From a virus, in the IMG/VR virus record IMGVR_UViG_3300023292_000069, positions 1 through 20,387 of that record: DNA of 20,387 nt; one strand, written 5' to 3'. A program made the position numbers and the translations under genes. Under the pieces are notes generated by a model that was not told where the DNA came from, ran no database searches, and was given only the letters and a program-made list of their open reading frames with translations. Positions 2 through 15,103 of the stretch are shown piece after piece; the stretch's first letter is position 1; every line of letters starts with the position of its first letter.

Positions 2-313
2 GTACAAGCTGGTCTTGCGGTCATATGTACCCACGGATATATTAATCATTATTATGGGGATGGGAGCGGTGATATTAGAGGACTATGGCATCAAGGGTAT
101 ATCGGTATTGAGGGAACAGAAGTAGCTTTCCGGCTGATGGACTTGTTTATCTCTAATGCTTGGGCGAAGAGCAACGAGTGGAAGTATGTCAAGGCAATCA
201 AGAAACTATCCAAGTTACAGCAAAAACCAGCCAAGCCGAAGAAAGTCAAGTGGAAGAAGTCAAGCGGATTAAAAGAGAAGAAACAGGCTTTCGAGGGGGT
301 GGCGGGTGAATAA
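2..313 (+). CDS. C-terminal part of an unrecognised protein, possibly a glycosyltransferase
   Basis: The frame is open from the left edge to a TAA at 311-313 and gives the last 103 residues of a longer protein. The first half holds an aromatic- and His-rich segment (ICTHGYINHYYGDGSGDIRG) followed by LWHQGYIG. The last 45 residues are very Lys-rich (QQKPAKPKKVKWKKSSGLKEKK) and look like a basic, flexible tail. No family is certain. The pattern of a hydrophobic strand, then H-Y-Y-G/D and R-G, resembles the C-terminal end of some phage GT2 glycosyltransferases, and related genes lie 4 kb downstream, so a fifth glycosyltransferase is possible but weakly supported. The stop overlaps the GTG start of the next gene by 8 bases, so the two are probably translationally coupled. 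The start and N-terminus are outside the window. Confidence 0.6.
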   Translation, partial: VQAGLAVICTHGYINHYYGDGSGDIRGLWHQGYIGIEGTEVAFRLMDLFISNAWAKSNEWKYVKAIKKLSKLQQKPAKPKKVKWKKSSGLKEKKQAFEGVAGE

Positions 314-2813
314 GTTCCTAAATGTAATTTCCCTTCTGATTGCCCTGATGGTGATTGTGCCTCTTGCTGTGGCTACCACTTATTATGTTGATGGCCTAAA
401 CGGCGACAACGGAAATACAGGACTTAGTTCTGACGGTACGGCGTGGGCAACGATAGACTATGCCACTAATACCATAACTGTAGGTGATACTTGCTGGATT
501 CGGCTTACGGCTTATTCTGAATATGTACAAATATATACCTCATCTGACAGTGGGACAAGCTGGACAGAGGGGAGCTTCATCGCTTTATATGGGGACACCA
601 ATGGTGTAGTTTGGAGTGATTCTACTGACCCGGAAGGGCCGGTAATCAATGCGGCAGGTAGGGCTGGTTTACTTATTTATCAAAGTTATTGGGATATTTC
701 TGGATTAAAAGTAGTCGGAGGAACGATTGATTGCATAGAATTTGGTAATTGTAATAATGTTAAACTATCTGACTTTACTGCTCATTCCGCAACAGGAACA
801 AACTATGGAAATATAAGGTTTTATCAGTCCCATGACATAACAGTATCTAACGGAAAAATAGCACATGGAGATGGTGATGGGATTCTTATCGGGGATTTCG
901 GTGGAGTCAACTATAATATTACAATAGATAATTGCGAAGTTTGGGATATGCCATGGGACAAAAAAGGCATAAACATGGACCACACCACAGATTACTCTGT
1001 AACGATACAGGATTGTTCTATTCACGATGGAGATAATTACGGAGTTTTACTGAGAGGGGATGATATCCACCTACTTCGTAGTGAGATATACAATTTCACT
1101 ACTTTTTATGGCGTTGTATTAGATACCCCCGATGAAGTTGCAGGATCAAATTCCGTTGTATCTAATGTTATCTATAATTGCAATTATGGAATTATTACTT
1201 CTACAAAATCAATTTGTTCAATTCTCAATAACTCTATTTATGGTATCACTAAATACGGGATATACAGCCAAAACATAATTGATGAATTAATCATAAAGAA
1301 CAACATCATAGAAGATGCAGGACGGGGATTCACGACACTCACGGATGTAGTGGATTTGACGAACAACTGTATGTGGGATATCTCTGGGGCAACCTATTTC
1401 GGATGCGAGACAGGGACAGATGATATATTTGCCGATCCCAACTTTACTTCTGCCACTGAACTTACTCGTACTACCCCTGATCCATGCTGGCAAGCTGGGA
1501 CAGACGTTGGAACGGTACTCGACTTCAATAGCCAGACATTCCCAGACCCTCCGGCAATAGGGGCATACTATGGGCCGGAGCCGACTGCATCACCATTCCC
1601 GGTTGATTCTCCTCCACCGACGCCCTATTTCCCTACACCGACCCGGACCCCAACGACTCCCACTCCGAGCCCGAGTCCGACATCGGCATTAACTCCGACA
1701 CCACAACCCACGCCGACAAGCGCGTTGACCCCGACTCCCCCACCAACGGTGACCCCGACTCCGAGAGTAATCACGCCTACTCCATCGCCATCTCCGACAA
1801 GCGCATTAACTCCAACTCCCAGCCCCAGCCCCAGTCCGGCAGATTTTAAGTATTGGCTAACATCCGGGGTAGGAATTACCAGGACAGTTTATTTTCATTG
1901 GACCGGCGGTGGAAGTTCTCCGTGGGGACCGTATGATATTACGACCACTCCGGCCTATTTGCATGACCGGCCTGAAACCGGAGGGTACTTTCTGTCTATG
2001 GTAGATGGGGTTCCGGGACCGTGGAAAACCAGACCGGAAAGGACGATGCTTGAATTTTGGTCGCCTCCAACTCCGACACCCACACCGAGCGTTACGCCTA
2101 CACCATCCACCACGCCTACCCCGAGCGTTACACCTACTATGACGCCGTCTCCGTCTCCAACTTCCGGGCCGGTATCAACACCGATAGCTGATATTTATAA
2201 TGGGTTCGATGACTTCGATATTGGGGTGAGAAAAAGCGGCTGGACGTTCAGTGGGATAGGAAACGCAGACGTTTACATCCACGAATATTATTACGGCCTG
2301 AACCGGCCGGGATTACAACTGGCGGATGATGGGGATTACTTTACTTCGGAGGCCCTGGTGGGAGTAGACAGAGAGCTGGGTTATTGGATGAGAGGGAGCG
2401 GCACAGGATCGGATAGCTATTTGAGTATCGATGGGAGAGTATATTTCGACCCGTATTATTATTGGTCAAATATTCAAGAGGTTAAGCCATTGCCGCAGGT
2501 GGAGACAAGCACAAGCGGGATCGAGATAATGGATGATGTTCTTTCTTTGAGATTTACCTATCACAAAACTACCGGGGAACTGGCATTGGATGATTTTCTG
2601 TATAATGCAATAACTCCGACTGTAACCCCGACGCCGGTGGGGTACTTGACACCCACCCCGACGCCGGTGGGATATCATACGCCGACACCTACAATCACCC
2701 CGGTCCCGTCACCTTCGGTCGCTCCGACTCCATCGCCGACGCCGGAGGATCAAATGTATAGTATTATTGTTTTACCATTCCAATTCAAGGGCACTCTTAT
2801 AATTGCCGACTAG
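306..2813 (+). CDS. Secreted right-handed beta-helix protein with three Pro/Thr/Ser-rich linkers
   Basis: 835 residues from a GTG start with a G-rich ribosome binding site at about 293-298. Residues 1-24 look like a Sec signal peptide (MNKF, then a hydrophobic stretch ending AVATT). Residues 25-45 have the YYVDGLNGDNGNTGLS opening typical of pectate-lyase-like beta-helix proteins. Residues about 100-400 carry irregular repeats rich in Asn and Ile (such as NNSIYGI and IKNNII), as expected for parallel beta-helix coils. Then come linker 1 (about 425-512), a small beta domain of about 70 residues, linker 2 (about 585-628), a jelly-roll-like domain (about 634-768; the motif LALDDF near its end recalls MAM-like domains), linker 3 (about 770-815) and a 20-residue hydrophobic tail. 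Beta-helices in phages usually bind or cut glycans, but a signal peptide is unusual for a tailspike. No catalytic residues can be assigned. It could be a lysogenic-conversion or exported accessory protein rather than a virion part. Confidence 0.85.
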   Translation: MNKFLNVISLLIALMVIVPLAVATTYYVDGLNGDNGNTGLSSDGTAWATIDYATNTITVGDTCWIRLTAYSEYVQIYTSSDSGTSWTEGSFIALYGDTNGVVWSDSTDPEGPVINAAGRAGLLIYQSYWDISGLKVVGGTIDCIEFGNCNNVKLSDFTAHSATGTNYGNIRFYQSHDITVSNGKIAHGDGDGILIGDFGGVNYNITIDNCEVWDMPWDKKGINMDHTTDYSVTIQDCSIHDGDNYGVLLRGDDIHLLRSEIYNFTTFYGVVLDTPDEVAGSNSVVSNVIYNCNYGIITSTKSICSILNNSIYGITKYGIYSQNIIDELIIKNNIIEDAGRGFTTLTDVVDLTNNCMWDISGATYFGCETGTDDIFADPNFTSATELTRTTPDPCWQAGTDVGTVLDFNSQTFPDPPAIGAYYGPEPTASPFPVDSPPPTPYFPTPTRTPTTPTPSPSPTSALTPTPQPTPTSALTPTPPPTVTPTPRVITPTPSPSPTSALTPTPSPSPSPADFKYWLTSGVGITRTVYFHWTGGGSSPWGPYDITTTPAYLHDRPETGGYFLSMVDGVPGPWKTRPERTMLEFWSPPTPTPTPSVTPTPSTTPTPSVTPTMTPSPSPTSGPVSTPIADIYNGFDDFDIGVRKSGWTFSGIGNADVYIHEYYYGLNRPGLQLADDGDYFTSEALVGVDRELGYWMRGSGTGSDSYLSIDGRVYFDPYYYWSNIQEVKPLPQVETSTSGIEIMDDVLSLRFTYHKTTGELALDDFLYNAITPTVTPTPVGYLTPTPTPVGYHTPTPTITPVPSPSVAPTPSPTPEDQMYSIIVLPFQFKGTLIIAD
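1591..1841 (+). repeat. Pro/Thr/Ser linker 1 with repeated SPTSALTPTP unit
   Basis: This in-frame low-complexity stretch encodes Pro alternating with Thr or Ser. The decapeptide SPTSALTPTP or a close variant occurs about three times, near 1674-1702, 1709-1738 and 1790-1819. The copies differ in wobble positions. The top strand is C-rich here, whereas most of the operon is G-rich. Such linkers form extended stalks between domains and, in exported proteins, are frequent O-glycosylation targets; the glycosylation is inference. Confidence 0.85.
2073..2190 (+). repeat. Pro/Thr/Ser linker 2
   Basis: An in-frame run of TPTP and PSVTPTPS units separates the roughly 70-residue middle domain from the jelly-roll-like domain of the same protein. 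It is shorter than linker 1 and built from the same kind of units, which suggests expansion by slippage or recombination. Confidence 0.75.
2613..2750 (+). repeat. Pro/Thr/Ser linker 3 with 30-bp direct repeat
   Basis: The 17-base string accccgacgccggtggg occurs at 2625-2641 and again at 2655-2671, giving two copies of a ten-residue unit TPTPVGY(L/H)TP. The rest is irregular TPTP and PSP units. The linker joins the jelly-roll-like domain to a short hydrophobic C-terminal tail. Confidence 0.8.
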
Positions 2814-2823: not shown

Positions 2824-3207
2824 ATGAAAGATCAAGTTATGTTATGCGCTTTAATTATGGGGATAATCCTCGGAGCCGTGGGGGGCGTTCTGGTAGGTTT
2901 AGCATTCGGGGAGGCGTTGATATTCTCACCGGGAGAGGAGAAGAACGTCTGGATACAGGTAGAAGAGAGAGAAGGCGGATCGTTTACAATAGACACCGCT
3001 ACAAGCTGGATCGAGATGAGCGACGGGACAAGCTATGTGGCGGAGACTAGTGCGGTAATTAGCGGCAGCCGGGTATACGCCCCGGTAGACGGAAGCAGCT
3101 GGACCACGGGCAGCGAGTATCATTTATTCATCCATTACGGGACGGATAAGACGAACGAGGTTTATATCAATGGGATACAGATACAAGTTGAGGAGGATTT
3201 CGAATGA
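2824..3207 (+). CDS. Small membrane-anchored or exported protein with Ig-like beta domain
   Basis: 127 residues from ATG 2824. Residues 5-30 form one strongly hydrophobic Gly-rich segment (LIMGIILGAVGGVLVGLAFG), a membrane anchor or uncleaved signal. Residues about 38-125 look like a single beta-sandwich: alternating hydrophobic strands, a central FTIDTATSWIEM, and an ending EVYINGIQIQVEE. This pattern resembles the Ig-like N-terminal domains of several phage fibre and baseplate proteins, but no exact family can be named. The gene overlaps the next by 4 bases (ATGA), so it belongs to the same translational unit as the head-tail connectors. A membrane segment in a protein placed at the head-tail junction is unusual. 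It may be a partner of the secreted beta-helix protein encoded just upstream. Confidence 0.7.
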   Translation: MKDQVMLCALIMGIILGAVGGVLVGLAFGEALIFSPGEEKNVWIQVEEREGGSFTIDTATSWIEMSDGTSYVAETSAVISGSRVYAPVDGSSWTTGSEYHLFIHYGTDKTNEVYINGIQIQVEEDFE

Positions 3208-4028
3208 GTTTAATAACGGTAGCAGAGATGGCGTCGTATCTTGAGTGTGAAACAGATGATGCTTTTATGCTGTTGATTCAGGACCCGACGGAAGATTGGT
3301 TCGACCAACAGGTCAATAGGGCGTTAGGCGAAACGGATTATACTTTAGAGCGATATGACGGCACGGGAGATAGCTGGCTGGAGCTTCGTAATTACCCAGT
3401 AACAGCGGTGACCAGGTTAAGCATGGGAGTTCGGGACGGGTTGTGGGTTAAGAATGGCAATACTGATTTAACCCTAGCCAGTGCGTCGATTACCGGAAGC
3501 AATCTGGTTCTAACCTCTTCGGGCGGCGCAGATCCCCATAGCGCGACTATTGCGATCGGGGCCGAGACACTAGCAACGCTGGCGGCTCTGGTGATAGCAG
3601 AGGGACACGGATGGACGGCGGGGGTGAGTGATTCGGCTAACGATGACATCCTGGCAACGGAGATGTTTGACCGGCTGGGGGGTAATGCTAATAATAATAA
3701 GTGTGAGTTTGATATGCCGGATTCCCCATCGGAGGAGAAGTTTGAGATTGACGGAGAGGGGAGCATAAAGCTGAGGGACGGAGTATTTTGTATGGGGACA
3801 AATAATATCTCGGTCACTTATAAAGCGGGGTACACGACTACAACGGTGCCGGGATACCTGAAGCTGGCTATCTTAAAAATGACGAAGGTATTTTATGAGA
3901 TGGTCGATCAGAATATGGAGAACTTTAAGAGCTTTAAGGCAGGAGATGTTTCGAGGGTATTAAAAGATGACCAGGTGCCGAAATTCGTACAGGGTGTAAT
4001 TGCGATGATGCGGAGGCAATCTTTATAA
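3204..4028 (+). CDS. Head-tail connector protein (gp6/gp15-like adaptor)
   Basis: 274 residues, with GAGGAGG just before the ATG and an ATGA overlap with the upstream gene. The N-terminus (LITVAEMASYLE, then a short helical stretch) and the C-terminus (VTYKAGYTTTTVPGYLKLAI, then helices) match the usual pattern of the adaptor that sits below the portal in HK97- and SPP1-type phages: N-terminal helix, beta core ending in V-x-Y-x-A-G-Y, then P-x-x-L-K-x-A. Known members are often 100-200 residues. Here an extra segment (about residues 85-205), containing ETLATLAALVIAEGHGWTAG, enlarges the middle. The protein likely assembles as a ring at the capsid portal and receives the next adaptor, which is encoded immediately downstream with an overlapping start. 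Confidence 0.75.
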   Translation: MSLITVAEMASYLECETDDAFMLLIQDPTEDWFDQQVNRALGETDYTLERYDGTGDSWLELRNYPVTAVTRLSMGVRDGLWVKNGNTDLTLASASITGSNLVLTSSGGADPHSATIAIGAETLATLAALVIAEGHGWTAGVSDSANDDILATEMFDRLGGNANNNKCEFDMPDSPSEEKFEIDGEGSIKLRDGVFCMGTNNISVTYKAGYTTTTVPGYLKLAILKMTKVFYEMVDQNMENFKSFKAGDVSRVLKDDQVPKFVQGVIAMMRRQSL

Positions 4029-4360
4029 TGGGAGTGCCGGGCAAAAAGACAAGTATCACCTTTCAAACCGTGGCGACATCTTCGGACGGAGCGGGCGGCC
4101 AGATCGAAGCGGCTCCGGTATTATATGATACGATCCGGGGGGTATGGTCAACGCTGAGCCGGTACGAGAGATTGATAGTAGGCGCTCCGGGGGAGGCGGC
4201 AGAGTTTATCGCATACTTGAAATATAATGCAACTACCGCCGGAATAACGACGAAGATGGAGGCAGTGGTGGGATCGGATAGGTACGAGATTATGGATATA
4301 GATAATCCGGGGAACCTTAACGATCATTTAGAGATCGGTTGCCGAAGGAAAATCACTTGA
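4028..4360 (+). CDS. Head-tail joining / head closure protein
   Basis: 110 residues, a typical size for the phage head-tail joining family (HK97 gp7 / SPP1 gp16 type). Visible hallmarks are an early beta region (ITFQTVATSSDGAGGQ), a G-V-W-S-T-L strand, and the late sequence DRYEIMDIDNPGNLNDHLEI, which follows the family pattern Y-x-I-x-x-I-x-N-P. The start overlaps the stop of the connector gene by one base (TAATG). The protein probably closes the portal channel and offers the surface to which the tail docks. Its 3' end overlaps the first glycosyltransferase gene by 4 bases. Confidence 0.75.
   Translation: MGVPGKKTSITFQTVATSSDGAGGQIEAAPVLYDTIRGVWSTLSRYERLIVGAPGEAAEFIAYLKYNATTAGITTKMEAVVGSDRYEIMDIDNPGNLNDHLEIGCRRKIT
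4345..4349 (+). promoter_or_regulatory. Ribosome binding site that fixes a TTG start at 4357
   Basis: AAGGA lies seven bases before TTG 4357, which overlaps the upstream stop as TTGA. The earlier in-frame TTG at 4339 has no such site. The favoured start gives an N-terminus MKRLAVISAYNE that matches the first strand of GT2 enzymes. Confidence 0.7.
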
Positions 4361-4968
4361 AAAGATTAGCAGTAATATCAGCTTATAACGAGATCGATTT
4401 TATAAGCGGCGCGATTAAAAGCGTGAGAGGATGGGCGGATAGGATAATTGTAGTGGATGGGGCATGGACGGGATTCCCGCTAATCAATAATGATTTCAAG
4501 AGCACGGATGGAACGATTGAGGAGGCCAGAAGATGGGGGGCCGAAGTCATAATACCGAAGAGAGTTTGGATTAATCAAGTAGAAAAAAGGAACGTATATT
4601 TATTGGCAGAGGATCCGGAAGATTGGTATTTGATTCTTGACGCTGATGAGCGACTGGCAGGTTGGCCGGAATATCCGTTATGGGGCCGGGCATACAATAT
4701 CATAATCATTGGCAACCGGATGAACCCGAGAGCGTATAGTATTGGACTTAGGTTGGTACGCAATACGATCGGTTTGCATTATGAGATGGTGCATAATTAT
4801 CTTGTTGATAATAACGGAGTAGTGGAGTCCGGGGGTACGATAAAGGATTGTATTATTCAACATCTATCTTATCTCCGAAGCGGAGAAAGAAATAAACTAA
4901 AAGATATCTACTCAAATATTCAGTGGGATGAAGAGATATCACGGAGGAGAGAACTTGGAATTGCCTGA
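4357..4968 (+). CDS. GT2-family glycosyltransferase (1 of 4)
   Basis: 203 residues from TTG 4357. The GT-A fold signature is clear: an N-terminal strand KRLAVISAYNE (residues 2-12), a second strand RIIVVDGAW with the STDGT loop typical of nucleotide-sugar binding, and a D-A-D-E motif at residues 95-98 that would coordinate the metal and sugar nucleotide. A later RLVRN (132-136) followed by YEMVHNYLVDN follows the R-L-F-R ... V-H-E pattern of GT2 enzymes related to WaaE/SunS types, with Asn in place of the usual Glu. There is no membrane segment, so it should act in the cytoplasm on a soluble acceptor. It is embedded between head-tail and tail genes and coupled to its neighbours at both ends. 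Donor sugar and acceptor are unknown. Confidence 0.8.
   Translation: MKRLAVISAYNEIDFISGAIKSVRGWADRIIVVDGAWTGFPLINNDFKSTDGTIEEARRWGAEVIIPKRVWINQVEKRNVYLLAEDPEDWYLILDADERLAGWPEYPLWGRAYNIIIIGNRMNPRAYSIGLRLVRNTIGLHYEMVHNYLVDNNGVVESGGTIKDCIIQHLSYLRSGERNKLKDIYSNIQWDEEISRRRELGIA
4943..4948 (+). promoter_or_regulatory. Ribosome binding site that fixes a TTG start at 4955
   Basis: GGAGGA lies six bases before TTG 4955. The alternative in-frame ATG at 4928 has only a poor upstream site, so the TTG is preferred although ATG is generally the stronger codon. Confidence 0.65.
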
Positions 4969-5833
4969 AAAAATTAGAATAGAGTTCAAGCCGTCAGCGG
5001 AGATGGATAGTTACCGGGGGCAAGGTATCGATACCAGGGAAGGGCAGCTGATTTGGACGGTAGAGTGGCGAGTGGGGGTAAGGCTAATAAAGCAATGGCC
5101 GGGAAAATGGAGAAAGGCAACAGAGAAACAGTCAGGCAAACGGCTAGTAACGGCAGTAATGCCAACGACAAAAGGCCGGGAGAAGATGGCCTTACATGCG
5201 ATTGAGTGTTTCTTGCGCCAGGAATGGGAGAACAAGGAACTGGTAATTGTGAACGAAGGCGATGCCTTTTTAATGAAACAGTCTAACCCGATAGTAAGGG
5301 AGGTTCTGGTGGAGAGGGGCCGGAACAATGGCTGGATGCGAAATATCGGGGATCGGCTGGCGGACGGGGATTATATTATCCGGTGGGATGATGATGATAT
5401 CCACCACCCCGGCAGGATCCGGGCGCAGATGAACGCGGTCGAAACGATCGGAGCGGTAGCAACGTCTTTAAAATATCGGATACATTATTTTATAGATACT
5501 GATCAAGCATATATATTCTCTTGTAAGGGGGAGGGATTAATACTCTATAAAAATGAGGGGCATAGATACTTCGAGGAAAATGAAGAGCTGGGCGGTACGG
5601 ATGGCGCGTTTTACGGAGAATACGCCGGGGAGGTATGTACTAAAGATAACTGGCCGGGATTATATATCAGGATTTACCACGGGACTAATATTTGCTCAAG
5701 AGATCATATCGCGAAACGGATGCCGAAGGATTTAAAGAAAGGAGAATGGAGACTGGCGGGGCCGTGGAACGAAAAAGGATTGAAGATATACTTGAAGAGT
5801 GCTGTAGATAATTTCAAAAAGGCCATAAAATAA
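4955..5833 (+). CDS. GT2-family glycosyltransferase (2 of 4)
   Basis: 292 residues from TTG 4955. An N-terminal extension of about 60 residues, with no recognised domain and ending in basic residues, precedes the GT-A domain. That domain begins at RLVTAVMPTTKGR (around residue 69). It has a second strand ELVIVNEGD, the segment ERGRNNGWMRNIGDRLADGD typical of GT2 enzymes, and four consecutive aspartates at 145-148 in IIRWDDDDIHHPGRI, the DxD metal site. The C-terminal third contains a FSCKGEG strand and several Trp residues, perhaps the acceptor side. No transmembrane segment is visible. The gene overlaps the previous one by 14 bases and is followed by a 33-base gap, the longest in the window. 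A cytoplasmic role in modifying a virion component is inferred from position only. Confidence 0.85.
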   Translation: MELPEKIRIEFKPSAEMDSYRGQGIDTREGQLIWTVEWRVGVRLIKQWPGKWRKATEKQSGKRLVTAVMPTTKGREKMALHAIECFLRQEWENKELVIVNEGDAFLMKQSNPIVREVLVERGRNNGWMRNIGDRLADGDYIIRWDDDDIHHPGRIRAQMNAVETIGAVATSLKYRIHYFIDTDQAYIFSCKGEGLILYKNEGHRYFEENEELGGTDGAFYGEYAGEVCTKDNWPGLYIRIYHGTNICSRDHIAKRMPKDLKKGEWRLAGPWNEKGLKIYLKSAVDNFKKAIK

Positions 5834-5866
5834 TTATGGTCTAACCGAAAAAAGGAGAAGAGGTAA

Positions 5867-6511
5867 ATGAAAAAGGTGGCGATATTATTGCCGACAATGA
5901 AAAAGTTTGTCATGACCCTGCCGGATACCCTGAAGCAGCTGGATAAAAAAACAGTATATCCAGAGGTGGGGGTGTTCGTGTTTTATGACGCGGACCCGGT
6001 GGGATTCAGGAATCTTGACTCATCGGAATATAAGATGAGCGTGGCAGGAATTACTAGCGATCGGATCGTCGAGAGGGTAGGGGCAATAAATAAATTGTAT
6101 GAGGGGCTGGATAGCAAGGCTGATTTATATTTGACCTGGATGCCGGATGCTGATCCGTGGGAGAAAGGTTGGCTGGCTAAGGCGGTGGACTTGTTTGATG
6201 ATAAGTTCGGGCGCGGAGCGGGTTTGCTTGAGCTGAGAGGGGAGATAATAATGTTTAACAAAAAATTCATCCGGGTAATGGACCTGCCGGAGAATACCTG
6301 CGTCCCCCCGAATTATATCCGGTACAACTGGGACAAAGAATTGATTGACCGGGCGAAGATTATGGAGATTTACGCGAAGGGGAAGGGACCCCGGAGAAAG
6401 CCGGAAGAGATCAGTCAAATCCGTGATACTCATATCCGGGTTAATGACAATGTCGTATTCAACCGGCGGGAACGGAACTGGCTTATGGCGGAGGCTACCA
6501 ATAATGAATAA
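5867..6511 (+). CDS. Glycosyltransferase-like protein, GT-A type (3 of 4)
   Basis: 214 residues from ATG 5867, with AAGGAG nine bases upstream. It starts with the strand KKVAILLPTMKKF. A second strand is VGVFVFYDADP. A third region, DLYLTWMPDADPWEKGWL, contains an Asp-x-Asp (D94, D96) at the place where GT2 enzymes hold the metal. This is followed by a helix and a strand GLLELRGEIIMFNKKF that resembles the acceptor-loop strand. The C-terminus (HIRVNDNVVFNRRERNWL) contains VNDN, close to the motif that often ends the catalytic core. The sequence is more divergent than the two upstream genes, and it could be an inactive or specialised member. It overlaps the fourth glycosyltransferase gene by 8 bases. 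Confidence 0.65.
   Translation: MKKVAILLPTMKKFVMTLPDTLKQLDKKTVYPEVGVFVFYDADPVGFRNLDSSEYKMSVAGITSDRIVERVGAINKLYEGLDSKADLYLTWMPDADPWEKGWLAKAVDLFDDKFGRGAGLLELRGEIIMFNKKFIRVMDLPENTCVPPNYIRYNWDKELIDRAKIMEIYAKGKGPRRKPEEISQIRDTHIRVNDNVVFNRRERNWLMAEATNNE
6490..6494 (+). promoter_or_regulatory. Ribosome binding site that fixes the start at 6504
   Basis: GGAGG lies nine bases before ATG 6504. The frame is open further upstream to 6345, but that part lies inside the previous gene and encodes Arg-rich sequence without family features, so the start at 6504 is preferred. Confidence 0.75.
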
Positions 6512-7178
6512 CACGCTGGCAATACTGATACCGACCCGACATCGACCAGAGATATTGAAACAATGCCTGGCTGACTTGAAGTGGCGGGTAGCATATAGAC
6601 CGGTAATGGTTTATCTGGTATTTGACGGAGACTGGGAAGGGTATAAGGATTTTGATCAGCAGATATTCAATCAGAGCTTTGCCGGTCAGATATTTCATAT
6701 CGAACACTCGGAATATATAGAGGCAATCAATGATATGGCAAAGCTGGCTTATGCCGCCGGGCATAAATATTTCCTACCGTGGAGCGATGATAGTTTCTTA
6801 AAGGGGGAAAGACCGCTAAGGAAGGCGATAGACGCGCTACGGGTGGCTGAGGGGCCGGGCAACCCCGTTGTTATGGCGATGAACAATCCTTACTGGGGAG
6901 ATCGGCTGGGGACTCATGCAATACTTAACCGGGCGATGGTGGATTATCTGGATTACGGCAATGGCGAGATATTCTATCCGAGGTACAGGCACTATGGCGG
7001 GGATAATGAGCTGACGGCTCGGGCGAAGAGGGGAGGTTATTTTCATTTCATCGAAGAGGTGGGGATAGAACATCCACCGCCGACAGAGACGCAGGGCAAT
7101 CCGTCGATGGTGCATAAGGACCATGATGGAAAACTATGGAGGGAGAGAAAGAGAGCGATAGATGCCGGCGCAGTCTAA
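6504..7178 (+). CDS. GT2-family glycosyltransferase (4 of 4)
   Basis: 224 residues from ATG 6504. The first strand TLAILIPTRHRP and the following helix are typical of GT2 enzymes. The strand VMVYLVFDGD comes next, then a helix SEYIEAINDMAKLAYAAGHK and the motif WSDDS (94-97), which stands in the DxD position. Near the C-terminus, HYGGDNELTARAKRGGYF with D167-N-E169 fits the acceptor-side acidic motif and its downstream Arg. A final EVGIEHPP strand completes the fold. No membrane helix is seen. It overlaps the upstream gene by 8 bases and the downstream tail gene by 17, so it is co-translated with structural genes. It probably uses a nucleotide sugar, but donor and acceptor cannot be read from the sequence. 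Confidence 0.8.
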   Translation: MNNTLAILIPTRHRPEILKQCLADLKWRVAYRPVMVYLVFDGDWEGYKDFDQQIFNQSFAGQIFHIEHSEYIEAINDMAKLAYAAGHKYFLPWSDDSFLKGERPLRKAIDALRVAEGPGNPVVMAMNNPYWGDRLGTHAILNRAMVDYLDYGNGEIFYPRYRHYGGDNELTARAKRGGYFHFIEEVGIEHPPPTETQGNPSMVHKDHDGKLWRERKRAIDAGAV

Positions 7179-7809
7179 AGTTAAAGTAATATGGAAGGGT
7201 GAAGATTTTAAACGAGCTTTGCACTTCGATATGAAAAAGAAGATGGAATTGTGCTGCCGCAAGATTGAAGCTGATATCAAGATATCAATATCAGGCCCGC
7301 CGAACACGGTCAATTATCAAAGTTCGATGGTAGGGACGCGATCCGGGGCACTAAGGGCAAGTATCACGAGTAACTGGACGGGAGGGGGATCGGGATCACC
7401 GCCGGGAGCAAAGGCAAAGGCGCGAGGGGCGACAAGCATACCGGATCCAGGGGGGACAGTTACAGAGGTTCGGGGGGTAGTCGGGACTAACCTGGTATAT
7501 GGTCCGTTACACGAGTTCGGGGATACGATTACCCCGAAAAAAAGAAAGTGGTTAACAATACCGTTCCCAAAGGAATGGGGTGGTGGTGCAATGACAGGTC
7601 TCAGTGTGGGACGGGGATCGGCCAGGGAGTTTAAAGATACATACATACATAATAATATTATATTTGCCTCACCTAAAGGCAGGGCGAAACCAGTACCGCT
7701 GTTTATTTTGAAGAAGAGCGTAACAATTAAACCCAGGCCATTCATCCGCCCGGCAATAGACAGAAATGCCTCAAATGTCAGAAGAGTATTTTTGGAGTTA
7801 AAGAAATGA
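7162..7809 (+). CDS. HK97 gp10-like tail completion protein
   Basis: 215 residues. The centre and end show the family pattern: a YGPLHEFGDTITPKKRKWL segment (Y-G-x-x-x-E-F-G) and a C-terminal RPFIRPAID, which in gp10-type proteins reads P-R-P-F-x-x-P-A. The N-terminus is a helix with a Lys-rich region. Gly- and Pro-rich loops (GGGSGSPPGAK) probably flank the beta core. Length is somewhat above the usual 120-170 residues. The protein typically sits at the head-proximal end of the tail. The ribosome binding site is weak (GAGAG at 7151-7155), so expression may rely on coupling with the overlapping glycosyltransferase gene. It overlaps the next gene by 4 bases. Confidence 0.75.
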   Translation: MPAQSKVKVIWKGEDFKRALHFDMKKKMELCCRKIEADIKISISGPPNTVNYQSSMVGTRSGALRASITSNWTGGGSGSPPGAKAKARGATSIPDPGGTVTEVRGVVGTNLVYGPLHEFGDTITPKKRKWLTIPFPKEWGGGAMTGLSVGRGSAREFKDTYIHNNIIFASPKGRAKPVPLFILKKSVTIKPRPFIRPAIDRNASNVRRVFLELKK

Positions 7810-8240
7810 CAGTATTAGATGACAATGCAGTGGCAACGGGGATCTACTCGAAGCTGACCACGGGGACGGAGGGGGTCGCCCTGATGGTTTTACTGACCGC
7901 CATATACCGGGATGAGATACCGGAGGGGGCTGTGCTTGATTATGTAAGATTTTTCAAGGTAAGCGAAGCAAGTCAGAATACCTTCTCAAATAAGTATTGG
8001 CCTTTAAAATTTCAGTTTGATATCTATGGCAAAAAAATAATCGGAGAGTCGGCGTCCCATAAGGCGTCGAGAATAAAGAAAGCATTAACCACCGCGATGG
8101 AAAGTAACAGCGCGGTGTTGACAATAGCAGGATTCAATTCGGTGTGTTGCCGATTCGATTTTGCCTCGGGGGACTATTCATGGGAGGAAGGTGTGAAGAG
8201 GATTATTGTGCAATACTCAATTTTAGTTGGGGAAGGATAA
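7806..8240 (+). CDS. Tail terminator protein
   Basis: 144 residues starting at an ATGA overlap with the gp10-like gene. An N-terminal helix (DDNAVATGIYSKL) precedes a beta sheet containing KFQFDIYGKKI, a helix SHKASRIKKALTTAM, and a final strand KRIIVQYSILVGE. This strand-helix-strand order and the F-D-I-Y-G motif fit the DUF3168/gpU-like tail terminators that cap the tail tube and bind the head connector. Its position directly before the tail tube gene is the standard one. The stop codon falls in a hairpin described separately. Confidence 0.7.
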   Translation: MTVLDDNAVATGIYSKLTTGTEGVALMVLLTAIYRDEIPEGAVLDYVRFFKVSEASQNTFSNKYWPLKFQFDIYGKKIIGESASHKASRIKKALTTAMESNSAVLTIAGFNSVCCRFDFASGDYSWEEGVKRIIVQYSILVGEG

Positions 8241-8271: not shown

Positions 8272-8667
8272 ATGAGCACGAGTGCAATTTGTGGAGAAAA
8301 TGGAAGTGTGGCAGTCGGGACCCTTGACGTCGCCGAAATCTCGAACTTTGAGATCAATATCAGCAGGACGCCGGTGGACGTCCCTAAGTATGGTACTACC
8401 AGAGATAAGTTACTCTGCGGCCCGTATGAATGGGATGGTAGTTTCAGCGGCAACTGGTACATGACCACTACCAATCAGCAAAAAGCGTTGCAAGACGCGC
8501 TGACTGGCGGGACTACCGTAACGCTGTTTGGTTACGTTGACGCGACTAAATGCTACACCGGAACCGTTTATATCACGGCGGTAAACGTGAGTGTTCCCTA
8601 CGACGGATTGGTCTCTGTGACCTTTAACTACGTCGGGACCGGGGTGCTTACTACTACCCTGGCGTAA
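8272..8667 (+). CDS. Major tail tube protein
   Basis: 131 residues, nearly all predicted beta. Features are an N-terminal ICGENGSVAVGTLDVAEISN, the segment INISRTPVDVPKYGTTRDK (tube proteins often have a strand followed by a loop with basic residues here), EWDGSFSGNWYM, a short helix QQKALQDAL, and a C-terminal strand pair SVPYDGLVSVTFNYVGTGVL. This pattern is typical of siphovirus tube subunits, which form hexameric rings stacked along the tape measure. Four Cys residues are present, which is many for this family. The preceding gene is the terminator and a strong ribosome binding site leads the gene, both consistent with a highly expressed tube subunit. Confidence 0.75.
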   Translation: MSTSAICGENGSVAVGTLDVAEISNFEINISRTPVDVPKYGTTRDKLLCGPYEWDGSFSGNWYMTTTNQQKALQDALTGGTTVTLFGYVDATKCYTGTVYITAVNVSVPYDGLVSVTFNYVGTGVLTTTLA

Positions 8668-9742: not shown

Positions 9743-12700
9743 CGTCGGTGGAATATATTTAGATATCAAGGCGGATGCCAGGCAGGTGATCCAGTCTCTT
9801 GACAAGCTCCACAAGAAAGTTACGGTCGGGGCAAAGGAAATGTCCTCGGCCTATAATGCAGTAGCGTCCTCCATGTCCGGTATCAGCAGAACCGGGCGGA
9901 GGGCGCTTCTTGCTATTACGGGGGCTGTAACGGCGGCGACTTATGCCTCCGCTAAATATGAGAAGCAGCTAGCCCAGGTCAGTACGATGCTATCCGGGGA
10001 GGGGATGGATTCGATGGAGGCGTACAAGGCCCAGATCCTTGACTTAGGGGTAGCTATGGGTGAGAGTACCGGGACATTATCCAAAGGATTGTATGACATA
10101 CTATCCGCAAGTGTAGCACCGACGGAGGCGTTAGGGGTTCTGGAAGTTTCGGCCAAAGCGGCAGCGGCAGGGCTGACGGATACCGGCACGGCGGCGGACG
10201 CTGTTACTACGATCATGAATTCTTACGGGATGGCTGCCGCTGATGCAACGGTTATCTCTGATAAGCTGTTCGCCACGGTTTATCGGGGGAAAACTGATTT
10301 TGCGCAACTGGCTCCAGCTATAGGTATGGTGGCTTCTACCGCGGCGCAGTCTGGACTTAGTCTTGATGAATTGTCGGGGGCGTTGTCAACGGCAACCAGG
10401 AACGGTGTTAAAACACGGGTAGCGATCACCGGGGTAAACTCGATGATGATGAGTTTTCTGAAGCCGACGGAAGATGCAAAGGTCGCGGCCAGGGAATTAG
10501 GCTTTGAGCTAAATACACAGACACTCAAGACCATTGGATTGGCCGGAGTGATTGATATATTATCCGGGGCGACGAAAGAGCAAGTCGCCAGTGTCATAAC
10601 CAACCGCCGGGCTCTAAAAGTACTTATGCCGATACTCGGTGATGTAGATGGATTCTATGAGGATATCGCGCTATCAGCCGGATCCGCTGGGGCAGCTCAA
10701 GCGGCGTTCGAGAAGCAGACGGGGACACTGGCTTTTCAGATGGGGCAATTAACGCAGGCGGGATTTAAGTTATTGGTGGGGCTGGGGGATATCTTCAATG
10801 AAGCGATACAGGGGAGCGGGGTAGTCGCTGGATTGACAGATATGCTATCCGGGTTGGGAGAGACGTTCAGTGATCTTGGGGGGACGGGCAAGACATTCGT
10901 GATTGTTATTACCGGCATTGCGGCGGCGGTAGCGGCTTTGATGGCAATAATACCGACGTTACTGGCATTGCTGGCGGCGGCGAAGGTGGCAGTAGCAATA
11001 CTCGGGACACAAGTTGCGATAGCTACCGGGGGGATATCTTTATTGGTCGCGGCAATAGTGGCCGGGGGATTAATCTTTGCTTTATCCGGTGCGGTCACTG
11101 AAAGCAAAAAAGCCTCGTCAGCAATAAATGAACTGAGCGGCGCGCTAAACTCCCAGATGGCGGTGATTGACGCGGTAACGAAGAAGCACCAGGGTCTCAA
11201 AAAACTACTCAGCGCATACGACAAGTTGGTTGAGAGAGAGAAAAAAGCGGTTGCGGCCGGGAAGAGCGTTACAGCAATACAGGCTCAACAGCAGGTAGCA
11301 CTAGTTAATCTGAGAAATGCAACCGACACCCTGTCAGTGGCATATAATACGCTTACGGGCAAGTACGAACTAAACCGGGCGGAGGTAGATAAACAGATAG
11401 GTAAAAATAATGAGTTGGCTATCAGTGAGATAGATACAGCACTGGTAATAATACGAGCGAAGAAATCGGTTACTGACGAAGAGGTTGATGCACTAAAGGA
11501 ATCCACGAAAGCAGCCGAAGTCAGAATGGCCGAGCTAACAGAGATAAGCAGAATAGACGAAGAGAACGCAAAGCTAAAGAAAAAGTATCTTGCCGAAGTA
11601 GCCAGGGCAGAGAAAGAGGGAACCGAGAGTACTTTAAGGGATGCAAGGATTAAACTCCAAGCGGTAGAGTACGCAATAATATGGGGAAAGAAGTGGGATG
11701 AAGAGGCAAAGGCGGAGCAGATTGAGTTAATAAAACTCCATTCGACGAATATAGCTATAATAACAACGTATAATAATCTCAAAGCCGAAGAGATAGAGTA
11801 TCAAAAATTATCGAATGACGCTCACGCCAAAGGTGCAGGCGAGAAAGAGAAAGAGAATGAGGAGATAGCCAAGGGCGAAGCAATACAAGCCAGTGTACTA
11901 AAGATAGCCAGGGAGAATGTCCAGGTCCGGGAACTATTAAACTCGATGGGGTGGGATATCGCCCCGCCTCCAGAGGATATTGATGTTGCAAAAAAGTCAG
12001 TAGCTGATTTAGAGGCCGCAGTGGAATCAATGGCGGATACGGCGGAAGAGGGTGGGGATAGATGGTTATCTACATTGACCCGGTTGGGTGTTGCCTATGG
12101 TGTGTTAGCGGATGAGGAGAAGGTACTAGCCGACGAAAGGGAAAAAGCATACGATGAAGCAAGCGATACGGTAGAGACATATTACGATGACCTCCGGAGT
12201 AATAGCGACTGGACAACGGATGCGGTAGTTGCAGACATCCAGGCCAGAATGGATAAGTTAAAAGAGGAGGGCAAAGAAGGCGGGGCGGTATATGAAGCAC
12301 TATCTGCGAAGATCATTATTGAGACGAAGAAGCAAGGCGCTGCATATACGAAGATATGGGATGGAGTTGTTCAGGATATAAACTCGGCAATGTCGGATTC
12401 TATCGCCGATATGATAAAGGGGAATAAGGATCTGGAAGAATCATTTAGGGATTTAGGGGACACGATTGTAGATAGTTTTGTTGATGCGTTCGCCGAGTCT
12501 ATCGTAGAAAAACTAGGCTTCGATAAATTATTTGAAGAAAATATACTTGGACTAGGGGGGATCGTGGAGGGTCTTGGGGATACTATTACAACTGCTATTG
12601 GAGGAGCATTTAGTGGTATTTTCGGTGGTGGTGCCACTGTGGTAACAGGAACTACAGGTGCGGGTGCCGTGGCCACAGGAGAGGCATCCATCAGCACGGC

Positions 12701-14228
12701 GGCAGCAGCGTCAGCCACCGCCGCCGCCGCAGAAGCCACAGCAGCGGCAGCGACAGCTACAGCGGTTTCAGCGACAGCTAGCGCAGGGGCAGTAGCAGCA
12801 GGATCGGCAGCCGTATCTGCGGCATCAGTTGTTTCAGGAACAGCACTTCCATCAATGGCCGGGCCAGGCGCGGCAGGAGGATTGGCTGCAGGAGGACTTG
12901 GGGCCGCAGTTGTAGGTTTAGCACTTGTATCACACGCAATAATGGGGGGTTTCTCGGAACTCACTACCCGTTATGATGACTGGTACGATTCGATCGAGAA
13001 TATACAGTTTGTCGGGGATGCTTACGCTCAACAATCGATTGAAAAACTGGACGAGATGGTTAACGCCACAAAGGAATTTGATTTTGTTCTTGATGATGAT
13101 ATCTCAAAGAGAAACCTATGGTATAGGCATTATGTGGAGGCAACGGGAGCATTCTCAGAAGAGCAGCTAAAACAAGCCAGGATGATATTCGGAATATATG
13201 AGTCCGCCGCCGAAAAGGCTGAACTGGCGGCCTCCGGATTCGACATGAGCAAAATTGAGCAGGACGCTGATAACTGGAGAAATAAATCTCAAGAGATTGT
13301 TGACGCTATCGCCGCAGCCGGAATATCTGCTCAAGATTTTGCAGGTGATACACAGGAGGCTATCAACTACTGGATGAGCCACGAACAGCGAGACCAGATG
13401 CCGCTGGAAGGTGTGTTAGAGAATGTTGTGGGGATGACTGATGCGTTCGCTGAATCGTTAGCGAGAGAGATTAGAATGATGGATGATTGGGCTCTCCATC
13501 AGTTTGATCTAAACGATGATTTTATTAACGAACTTATATCCGGAACCCCCGGTATGCCACGGGGCGGAATCACTTCTGAAACAGTACCAGGTCCAGATTA
13601 TTCATTAAGTTTGGAGAAAGAGAGTGCAGATACAGCTTTACTGCTGGATAATTTAAAAGTCATCGTCGGGGAGTTTATGGATGCTGGGATGACAATGACA
13701 GATGCGATGGGAGCAGGCACGGATGAAATGCGTAAGCTAACTATAGGAGAGAGGGAGCAGAGCGGAGCAATACAACAAACGATATCGGATATATTAGGTT
13801 TGGGGGATGCTTCTCTGCTAACAGAGGATGGGTTCAATAAGTTGCTTGCTGAATCAGATTCATTCGCGAATGTAATGGGTGGATTCACTTTTGATGAGTA
13901 TATGGATGAGCTGGACTGGTATGAGTTTATCAGGTCAGTAGATCTGAATAATTTTGTAACACGGGCGGACACACAAGGGGGCGAGACTTTCAATGATTTC
14001 ATTTCACGGCCAGGCAGAGGTGTGGTAGGCTTCTCTCCTAACGATACTATTATTGGAATGAAGAGGCCGGGTGATTTGAACATAGCCGGGAGCGGAGGGG
14101 GGGGCGGGATAACAATTCAAAAGGTGACGATGACTTTCAATGGTGATATCAGGACTGACGCGGACTATGAAGAGATAGAACAGAGAATGACTGATTCCCT
14201 GAACAACGCACTCAAAGGGGTGTCGTAA
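9732..14228 (+). CDS. Tail tape measure protein
   Basis: 1498 residues. The N-terminal 330 residues have the conserved core of TP901-type tape measure proteins, including KYEKQLAQVSTML, LSKGLYDILSASVA, AADAVTTIMNSYGM, KTDFAQLAPAIGMVAS and SGLSLDELSGALSTATRNGV. Residues about 386-457 are strongly hydrophobic (two to three membrane segments), as expected for a protein that helps DNA cross the host membrane. Residues about 460-800 are largely helical and charged, probably coiled coil. Residues about 977-1072 are an Ala-rich low-complexity segment ending in a hydrophobic Gly/Ala stretch. No lysozyme or peptidase domain is evident. With the usual 0.15 nm per residue, the tail would be about 220 nm. 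A run of eight G (14097-14104) encodes a Gly stretch near the end. Confidence 0.92.
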   Translation: MAFNVGGIYLDIKADARQVIQSLDKLHKKVTVGAKEMSSAYNAVASSMSGISRTGRRALLAITGAVTAATYASAKYEKQLAQVSTMLSGEGMDSMEAYKAQILDLGVAMGESTGTLSKGLYDILSASVAPTEALGVLEVSAKAAAAGLTDTGTAADAVTTIMNSYGMAAADATVISDKLFATVYRGKTDFAQLAPAIGMVASTAAQSGLSLDELSGALSTATRNGVKTRVAITGVNSMMMSFLKPTEDAKVAARELGFELNTQTLKTIGLAGVIDILSGATKEQVASVITNRRALKVLMPILGDVDGFYEDIALSAGSAGAAQAAFEKQTGTLAFQMGQLTQAGFKLLVGLGDIFNEAIQGSGVVAGLTDMLSGLGETFSDLGGTGKTFVIVITGIAAAVAALMAIIPTLLALLAAAKVAVAILGTQVAIATGGISLLVAAIVAGGLIFALSGAVTESKKASSAINELSGALNSQMAVIDAVTKKHQGLKKLLSAYDKLVEREKKAVAAGKSVTAIQAQQQVALVNLRNATDTLSVAYNTLTGKYELNRAEVDKQIGKNNELAISEIDTALVIIRAKKSVTDEEVDALKESTKAAEVRMAELTEISRIDEENAKLKKKYLAEVARAEKEGTESTLRDARIKLQAVEYAIIWGKKWDEEAKAEQIELIKLHSTNIAIITTYNNLKAEEIEYQKLSNDAHAKGAGEKEKENEEIAKGEAIQASVLKIARENVQVRELLNSMGWDIAPPPEDIDVAKKSVADLEAAVESMADTAEEGGDRWLSTLTRLGVAYGVLADEEKVLADEREKAYDEASDTVETYYDDLRSNSDWTTDAVVADIQARMDKLKEEGKEGGAVYEALSAKIIIETKKQGAAYTKIWDGVVQDINSAMSDSIADMIKGNKDLEESFRDLGDTIVDSFVDAFAESIVEKLGFDKLFEENILGLGGIVEGLGDTITTAIGGAFSGIFGGGATVVTGTTGAGAVATGEASISTAAAASATAAAAEATAAAATATAVSATASAGAVAAGSAAVSAASVVSGTALPSMAGPGAAGGLAAGGLGAAVVGLALVSHAIMGGFSELTTRYDDWYDSIENIQFVGDAYAQQSIEKLDEMVNATKEFDFVLDDDISKRNLWYRHYVEATGAFSEEQLKQARMIFGIYESAAEKAELAASGFDMSKIEQDADNWRNKSQEIVDAIAAAGISAQDFAGDTQEAINYWMSHEQRDQMPLEGVLENVVGMTDAFAESLAREIRMMDDWALHQFDLNDDFINELISGTPGMPRGGITSETVPGPDYSLSLEKESADTALLLDNLKVIVGEFMDAGMTMTDAMGAGTDEMRKLTIGEREQSGAIQQTISDILGLGDASLLTEDGFNKLLAESDSFANVMGGFTFDEYMDELDWYEFIRSVDLNNFVTRADTQGGETFNDFISRPGRGVVGFSPNDTIIGMKRPGDLNIAGSGGGGGITIQKVTMTFNGDIRTDADYEEIEQRMTDSLNNALKGVS
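12661..12945 (+). repeat. Ala-rich low-complexity segment of the tape measure protein
   Basis: This in-frame stretch is rich in GCN codons and encodes Ala alternating with Thr, Ser and Gly (such as ASATAAAAEATAAAATATA), then a Gly/Ala-rich hydrophobic segment. It lies between two helical regions. Mixed codons at the Ala positions argue against simple recent triplet expansion. It may be a flexible or membrane-active part of the tape measure. Confidence 0.7.
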
Positions 14229-15103
14229 TGGCAGTAACAATTAGAAATAGTAGTGATGGCATAAAATATACCTTCCCGCCAAAGACAGATTTATATGGTG
14301 GATTTGCGATGGAGGAGGAGTCTGTAATTCAACGGGTTGCAGTATCGGAAAGACTGTACTCTCATGGTGGCGCGATTACCGGAGATGGAAAGGTGGCGAG
14401 TCGAACGATACAGCTGAATGGAGTTATCCAGACCACGGGTGCGGGTGCGCCGGCGGCATTGGAGACAGAGCTTGACGCTATGAAATATCACTGCACCTAC
14501 GGAGATACATTTAACGTGGAGAGAAGATTATATCTACCCCAGTATAGCAGCAAGAAATATTATCTTCTGGGTGGCATGGCTGATTTTTCGGTAGAGAGGT
14601 TATCATCGATTGGGGCGCAAGTACAGATATCCTGGGTGATCCCGGATCCCTTTCTTTATGCGAGAAATGACGATAGGCAGACATGGACATATCAAATAAC
14701 GATCCCGGCGTCTGGAGGAGTTTCTAAACACCCTGAGATAACATCCAATAATGTGGGAGGAGATTCATGTTATCCGGTATGCCCGTATTCGGTTGATGTA
14801 ACGGTAACAAGCGGAACGATGAATATATTCTATATCAGGAATAGTACGGATAGCATGAGGGCTGTGCGTTTCGTCAAGGCAATGTCGGCAAGCTCAAATA
14901 ATAGGTTCGTGCTGGATTATACAAACGGAACCGCGACGGGATACGGGGGGATATGGGGAACGGGATTAGATGTTATCAGGCATATAACATCGGCGAACTG
15001 GTGGAGCATAATACCCCACGGTAATCACCTGGCAATATATGTTCAGGGATCAGCGGGAAGTGTAATTGATATCGAAATGAAATGGAGGCCAAGATGGCTA
15101 TAG
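14228..15103 (+). CDS. Distal tail protein (Dit-like)
   Basis: 291 residues; the start overlaps the tape measure stop by one base (TAATG). The position between tape measure and hub genes is that of Dit. The N-terminal half (about 1-140) contains SRTIQLNGVIQ and a helix ALETELDAMK followed by RRLYLPQ and a late VQISWVIPDPFLYA; this order (strand G-x-I, helix, strands, then a P-D-P-F/L) is characteristic of Dit belt domains that form the hexameric ring under the tube. The C-terminal half (about 155-291) is beta-rich and probably a galectin-like domain. It includes a CYPVC pair of Cys. The protein would connect the tube to the giant hub/fibre protein encoded next. Confidence 0.78.
   Translation: MAVTIRNSSDGIKYTFPPKTDLYGGFAMEEESVIQRVAVSERLYSHGGAITGDGKVASRTIQLNGVIQTTGAGAPAALETELDAMKYHCTYGDTFNVERRLYLPQYSSKKYYLLGGMADFSVERLSSIGAQVQISWVIPDPFLYARNDDRQTWTYQITIPASGGVSKHPEITSNNVGGDSCYPVCPYSVDVTVTSGTMNIFYIRNSTDSMRAVRFVKAMSASSNNRFVLDYTNGTATGYGGIWGTGLDVIRHITSANWWSIIPHGNHLAIYVQGSAGSVIDIEMKWRPRWL
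15084..15088 (+). promoter_or_regulatory. Ribosome binding site that fixes the hub/fibre start at 15094
   Basis: GGAGG lies five bases before ATG 15094, inside the last codons of the Dit gene. The two genes overlap by 10 bases. Confidence 0.75.

Follow-up and report, generated by a model that had tools for sequence, protein, structure and literature searches.

Why would a tailed virus carry a row of glycosyltransferase genes among the genes that join its head to its tail? The question is posed by the IMG/VR virus record IMGVR_UViG_3300023292_000069, a fragment of 20,387 bases (hereafter the window, which denotes the whole stretch of DNA analysed) from a tailed virus represented solely by environmental DNA. 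Four tightly packed, co-directional genes on the plus strand, termed here GT1 to GT4, fill positions 4357-7178 of the window and lie between a head-completion gene and a Neck1 gene. The explanation that we prefer, at a probability of roughly 0.6, is that GT1-GT4 constitute a cytoplasmic cassette for the glycosylation of virion proteins, in which the first enzyme is conserved and the enzymes that extend the glycan are exchangeable.

Identity of the four enzymes

GT1 (4357..4968, starting with TTG at 4357, 203 aa) and GT4 (6504..7178, starting with ATG at 6504, 224 aa) were assigned to phrog_7009 (E 2e-6) and phrog_14945 (E 1e-4), respectively, both of which are PHROGs annotated as glycosyltransferase. 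GT2 (4955..5833, 292 aa), whose N terminus is extended by a conserved stretch of about 60 aa, belongs to the PF00535 family with 44.8 bits against a cut-off of 23.3 bits, while GT1 (17.5 bits) and GT4 (13.0 bits) remain below this cut-off and GT3 (5867..6511, starting with ATG at 5867, 214 aa) gave no match. Because GT3 matched no family in either Pfam or PHROGs, its structure was modelled from five sequences, resulting in a mean pLDDT of 60.5 and a pTM of 0.66, with a weak part at residues 147-196. The core of the model was aligned foremost with the mannosyltransferase PcManGT (6yv7; Z 15.0, rmsd 2.3, 140 residues aligned) and then with many GT-A enzymes. A preliminary description of this locus had named the absence of a GT-A fold as one finding that would speak against it, and GT3, the most doubtful of the four genes, is predicted by the model to adopt that fold.

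The acidic motifs listed in the same description, namely DADE in GT1, DDDD in GT2, DAD in GT3 and SDDS in GT4, are all present, and their key aspartates are conserved in relatives: D97 and E98 are invariant in seven GT1 proteins, the DDDD motif is kept in the relatives of GT2, and one Asp is invariant across five GT3/GT4 proteins. GT3 and GT4 share 26% identity (E about 4e-9) and, judging from this similarity, are diverged paralogues, so that the claim of four different GT-A-type enzymes is sustained as to the number of genes and their glycosyltransferase-like character, but not as to the distinctness of the last two. Ferritin matches of the GT3/GT4 profile were judged to be chance alignments. 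Comparison with an 84% relative (L008), which covers GT3, GT4 and the tail genes and neither GT1 nor GT2, gave dN/dS values of 0.10 for GT3 and 0.14 for GT4 against 0.05-0.16 for the neighbouring tail genes, values that place both enzymes under purifying selection comparable to that on the tail genes. Taken as a set, GT1-GT4 look like real GT-A-type glycosyltransferases that are expressed with the virion genes.

Coupling to the virion genes

The start of GT1 overlaps by 4 bases the end of the head completion/Hc1 gene (4028..4360, plus strand; PF05521 26.2 bits, cut-off 25), and the end of GT4 overlaps by 17 bases the Neck1/tail completion gene (7162..7809, plus strand, ATG at 7162; phrog_5, E 7e-10). 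Within the cassette, the TTG start of GT2 at 4955 is preceded by the ribosome-binding-like GGAGGAGAG, and a gap of 33 bases separates GT2 from GT3. Pfam and PHROGs identified the flanking genes as virion joining genes, which confirms the placement of the four genes in the head-tail operon, with correct coordinates, as given by the preliminary description, and the overlaps at both ends support the expression with virion genes that it had deduced from them. Its statement that GT1-GT4 have no membrane segment also stood, as no hydropathy peak at membrane level was found in any of the four proteins, and a cytoplasmic, probably virion, acceptor is still the best fit to this feature and to the coupling with virion genes.

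The same observations bear on the possibility that the enzymes modify a surface polysaccharide or lipid carrier of the host, in the manner of superinfection exclusion or serotype conversion, with the operon position being incidental. Such a role is favoured by the best NCBIfam match of GT2, the surface-polysaccharide enzyme WcaA, and by the structural neighbours of the GT3 model, which include GtrB and ArnC. However, a Gtr-type set comprises a membrane-anchored GtrB together with GtrA, whereas GT1-GT4 are devoid of membrane segments, no flippase or GtrA-like partner was recognised in the window, and the cassette is coupled to late virion genes. On this fragment a host-envelope target is less likely than a virion target, and we consider it improbable.

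Relation of GT1 to characterised protein glycosyltransferases

When a profile built from seven GT1-family sequences was compared with the PDB, GmaR (PDB 22ao) came first with E 9e-10 and a match spanning almost the entire length, followed by a Glyco_trans_2-like protein and SunS (PDB 7msp and 7msn; E 4e-4 and 7e-4), and a two-sequence profile, made from the GT1 proteins of the window and of the environmental virus L018 described below, retrieved GmaR with E 9e-5. The result requires a profile, the only match of a single-sequence PDB search with GT1 having been judged spurious. The top NCBIfam model for the GT1 members of L018 and of the environmental contig L115 is SunS, called peptide S-glycosyltransferase by its family name (TIGR04195), whose cut-off of 350 bits was not reached by L018 GT1 (17.4 bits) or L115 GT1 (42.7 bits), with no match for window GT1.

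GmaR and SunS are, like GT1, soluble GT2-type domains and represent its nearest solved structures by profile, and the glycosyltransferase domain of GmaR puts GlcNAc on flagellin (PMC9638930). Unlike GT1, GmaR harbors extra TPR and antirepressor domains (PMC9638930). The resemblance of GT1 to these two enzymes favours a protein acceptor over DNA or lipid and suggests that GT1 acts first.

This resemblance also weighs on the idea that the cassette glycosylates modified bases of the viral DNA and thereby blocks restriction. Hypermodification of phage DNA by glycosyltransferases is known (Pyle et al. 2024, as cited in PMC12619734), and base-modification genes could lie elsewhere in the genome since the window is a fragment. 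Nevertheless, no base-modification gene was recognised in the 20 kb of the window by its open reading frame list, Pfam or PHROGs, the position among virion genes rather than replication genes recurs in several unrelated lineages, and GT1 is nearest to protein glycosyltransferases. A DNA target is accordingly the less likely choice on this fragment, and we give it little credence.

Recurrence of the cassette in other viruses

The complete cassette is present in several contigs of near-identical strains, and the preliminary proposal to seek it in related viruses was rewarded by L018 (IMGVR_UViG_3300031601_000617), an environmental virus whose proteins are 26-63% identical to those of the window. 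Homologues of the head-tail adaptor gene (3204..4028, plus strand; phrog_442, E 4e-19; 36% identity) and of the head-completion gene (29%) are followed there by GT1 (39%), GT2 (46%, full length), a GT4-like gene (26%, E 8e-24) and an additional gene that resembles the PF11316 putative rhamnosyltransferases (Rhamno_transf; 20.5 bits, below the cut-off of 23). Then come Neck1 (32%), the tail completion gene gp17 (7806..8240, plus strand; PF11367 32.6 bits; 35%) and the major tail (tube) protein (8272..8667, plus strand; phrog_1407, E 1e-10; 63%). L018 thus shares with the window the identical flanking genes and the matching order of GT1, GT2 and the GT4-like gene; unlike the window, it has no GT3 at the cassette and has gained the PF11316-like enzyme. 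This gene order indicates that the cassette keeps its position and its first two enzymes, and that exchange concerns the later ones. Judging from the recurrence in L018 with one enzyme exchanged, together with the dN/dS of GT3 and GT4, the cassette is not a product of chance. A tblastn search with GT2, GT3, GT4 and the Rhamno_transf-like gene of L018 detected no relatives among annotated phages.

GT1 is the recurring member. Its relatives, which are 26-41% identical and include proteins of L018, L028, L034, L044, L053 and Baka gp20, are located in the structural operons of cluster J mycobacteriophages and of two prophages, and likewise in those of several environmental lineages; the structural roles in these contigs were assigned by reading the sequences by eye where no family search is named. 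In L053, a Fodinicola prophage, the relative lies directly behind the capsid gene, and in L044, a Mycolicibacterium prophage, it is accompanied by two glycosyltransferase-like genes and a UDP-sugar dehydrogenase upstream and by a connector-like gene downstream. L034, a phage contig binned with a bacterium, carries terminase, portal, UDP-sugar dehydrogenase, protease and capsid genes upstream of its GT1 relative. Further relatives occupy structural operons of the environmental contigs L028, L115, L120, L123, L128 and L133, and L120 displays four glycosyltransferase-like genes in a row, flanked by connector-like and tail genes in an arrangement close to that of the window.

Among the records with a GT1 relative, 28 have a capsid gene matched by PF05065. 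The relative is always on the capsid strand (28/28); its distance from the capsid gene is at most 3 kb in 13 records, against 7.1 under uniform placement, and at most 10 kb in 27. Since the records are fragments and partly related, these distances are supportive rather than strong. PF05521 proved too narrow as a structural marker across GT1 relatives (3/50), and many of the 78 genome matches of the GT1 profile are of partial coverage and, where examined, ordinary chromosomal GT2 enzymes, for which reason these were not counted as cassettes.

Additional PF00535 genes and UDP-sugar dehydrogenases are found near several GT1 relatives. UDP-glucose/GDP-mannose dehydrogenase-like genes adjoin the relatives inside phage structural operons at L034:4597-5364, L123:7289-8023, L128:5145-5891 and L044:6377-7603, three of the four being short (244-255 aa). 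At L028:6001-7720 the GT1 relative and a second sugar-transferase-like gene without a Pfam match stand between capsid-like and connector-like genes, and several neighbouring proteins of L028 that have membrane segments may point to a host that is unusual and possibly archaeal.

Comparison with known mycobacteriophage systems

In 2013, an insert of 8-10 genes between the capsid and connector genes of cluster J mycobacteriophages was reported, which includes five glycosyltransferases as well as methyltransferase and kinase genes, and whether its enzymes act on viral or host targets was left open (PMC3706429). The insert (Baka gp11-gp20, Thibault gp11-gp19; PMC3706429) resembles the window in placing several glycosyltransferases in a structural operon, one of which, Thibault gp19/Baka gp20, is a homologue of GT1 (Baka gp20, 27-28% over 91% of GT1). 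It differs in being situated before rather than after the head-tail adaptor genes and in its extra kinase, methyltransferase and protease genes, while its other glycosyltransferases have no detectable relation to GT2-GT4.

According to later papers, virion proteins of Che8, Corndog and Myrna are glycosylated (Freeman et al. 2023, via PMC12363180, PMC11256854 and PMC12619734), Che8 gp110 and Corndog gp38 are essential for capsid glycosylation (PMC12363180), and the glycans reside on the capsid and tail tube subunits at their C termini (PMC12619734). Che8 gp109, which adjoins Che8 gp110, shares 70% identity with Baka gp16, and in Wildflower the interval from portal to protease holds three glycosyltransferase genes and, among them, a gene 47% identical to Che8 gp110. 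The Che8, Corndog and Myrna systems share with the window the use of phage-encoded glycosyltransferase genes, with the Che8 gp110 homologue of Wildflower in the head operon; they differ in that modification of capsid and tail tube has been experimentally tested there, whereas the window cassette is read here from its genes.

The presence of two or more glycosyltransferase genes inside a virion structural operon is true of both the window and L018. With the cluster J insert, GT1 homologue included, described in 2013 and virion glycosylation reported for Che8, Corndog and Myrna, this kind of system, in which glycosyltransferases of the head-tail operon modify the virion, is already known, and the suggestion that the locus represents an undescribed system is not supported. 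The window cassette extends the known kind to unrelated, uncultured viruses and is not a new kind.

Proposed action and candidate acceptors

What the enzymes do, in which order, on which acceptor, with which sugar and to what advantage we infer as follows. Encoded in the late virion operon and expressed with it, the cassette would act in the cytoplasm: GT1 would link a first sugar, drawn from a host nucleotide sugar, to an amino-acid side chain of a virion protein, and GT2, GT3 and GT4 would extend or branch this sugar into a short oligosaccharide, either ahead of assembly or in its course. That the sugars form an ordered oligosaccharide is a plausible idea, since the conserved first enzyme recurs with exchangeable partners. 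The likeliest acceptor would be a protein that is abundant on the particle surface, for example the major capsid protein or that of the tail tube, and the glycan would change the exterior of the particle, with possible effects on adsorption, stability or shielding.

The principal competing explanation keeps the enzymes and changes the acceptor: the cassette might glycosylate the virus's own exported Thr/Pro-rich proteins before or during export, leading to mucin-like surface or secreted glycoproteins. Three proteins encoded between the capsid gene and the adaptor, namely a beta-helix protein (306..2813, plus strand; PF13229 51.1 bits) and the products of two genes upstream, have signal-like N termini and Thr/Pro-rich segments, and the beta-helix gene, which specifies 55 S/T-P dipeptides, varies strongly between strains. 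Yet cytoplasmic glycosyltransferases and exported acceptors would need to meet before export, and cassettes recur in Baka and Wildflower, whose annotated neighbourhoods contain no exported Thr/Pro-rich genes; we therefore regard this explanation as unlikely, albeit less so than a DNA or host-envelope target. Among the strains, exported Thr/Pro-rich genes occur at L010:2428-2877 and 3869-4447, and a fused or shortened form at L009:5478-6740. The Thr/Pro-rich locus of L006 has a dN/dS of 0.48, while the glycosyltransferases are almost identical between strains.

Several points count against the preferred interpretation, glycosylation of virion proteins. The virus is uncultured and its putative glycosylation has been read from gene content, and late expression, rather than a virion target, could account for the operon position. 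The matches of GT1 to SunS and GmaR are distant, SunS lying far below its NCBIfam cut-off, and the location statistics are drawn from short, partly related contigs. No glycosyltransferase of the window matches Che8 gp110 at E 0.05 and none shows clear homology to either gp109 or gp110 of Che8, the sole Che8 match being a weak one of GT2 to gp108 (E 5e-4). The fold model covers GT3 among the four; the GT2 model, built from two sequences, reached a pLDDT of 32 and carries no fold claim.

Somewhat short of an even chance is a broader proposal, that GT1 represents a family of protein glycosyltransferases, widespread in phages, that initiate the glycan and, combined with extension enzymes that are freely exchanged and sometimes with phage-borne nucleotide-sugar dehydrogenases, would build lineage-specific virion oligosaccharides in many uncultured viruses. 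If true, virion glycosylation would be a general and rapidly diversifying trait rather than a speciality of mycobacteriophages, whereas the literature that we found shows it only in a few of the latter. The recurring GT1 in structural operons of unrelated phages offers a sequence handle for finding glycosylated virions elsewhere, as well as a simple co-expression assay to identify acceptor and linkage, and the finding bears on the question of viral or host targets raised in 2013 for cluster J.

Other features of the window

A very long tail-fibre-like gene occupies positions 15082-20385 and is open at the window end; near its end it contains repeats of the type NVASGNQALYSNTTG, which resemble adhesin head repeats. 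In the tape-measure gene, a late segment (window 12557-13633; L005:14287-15438) has been replaced between strains that are otherwise more than 99% identical.

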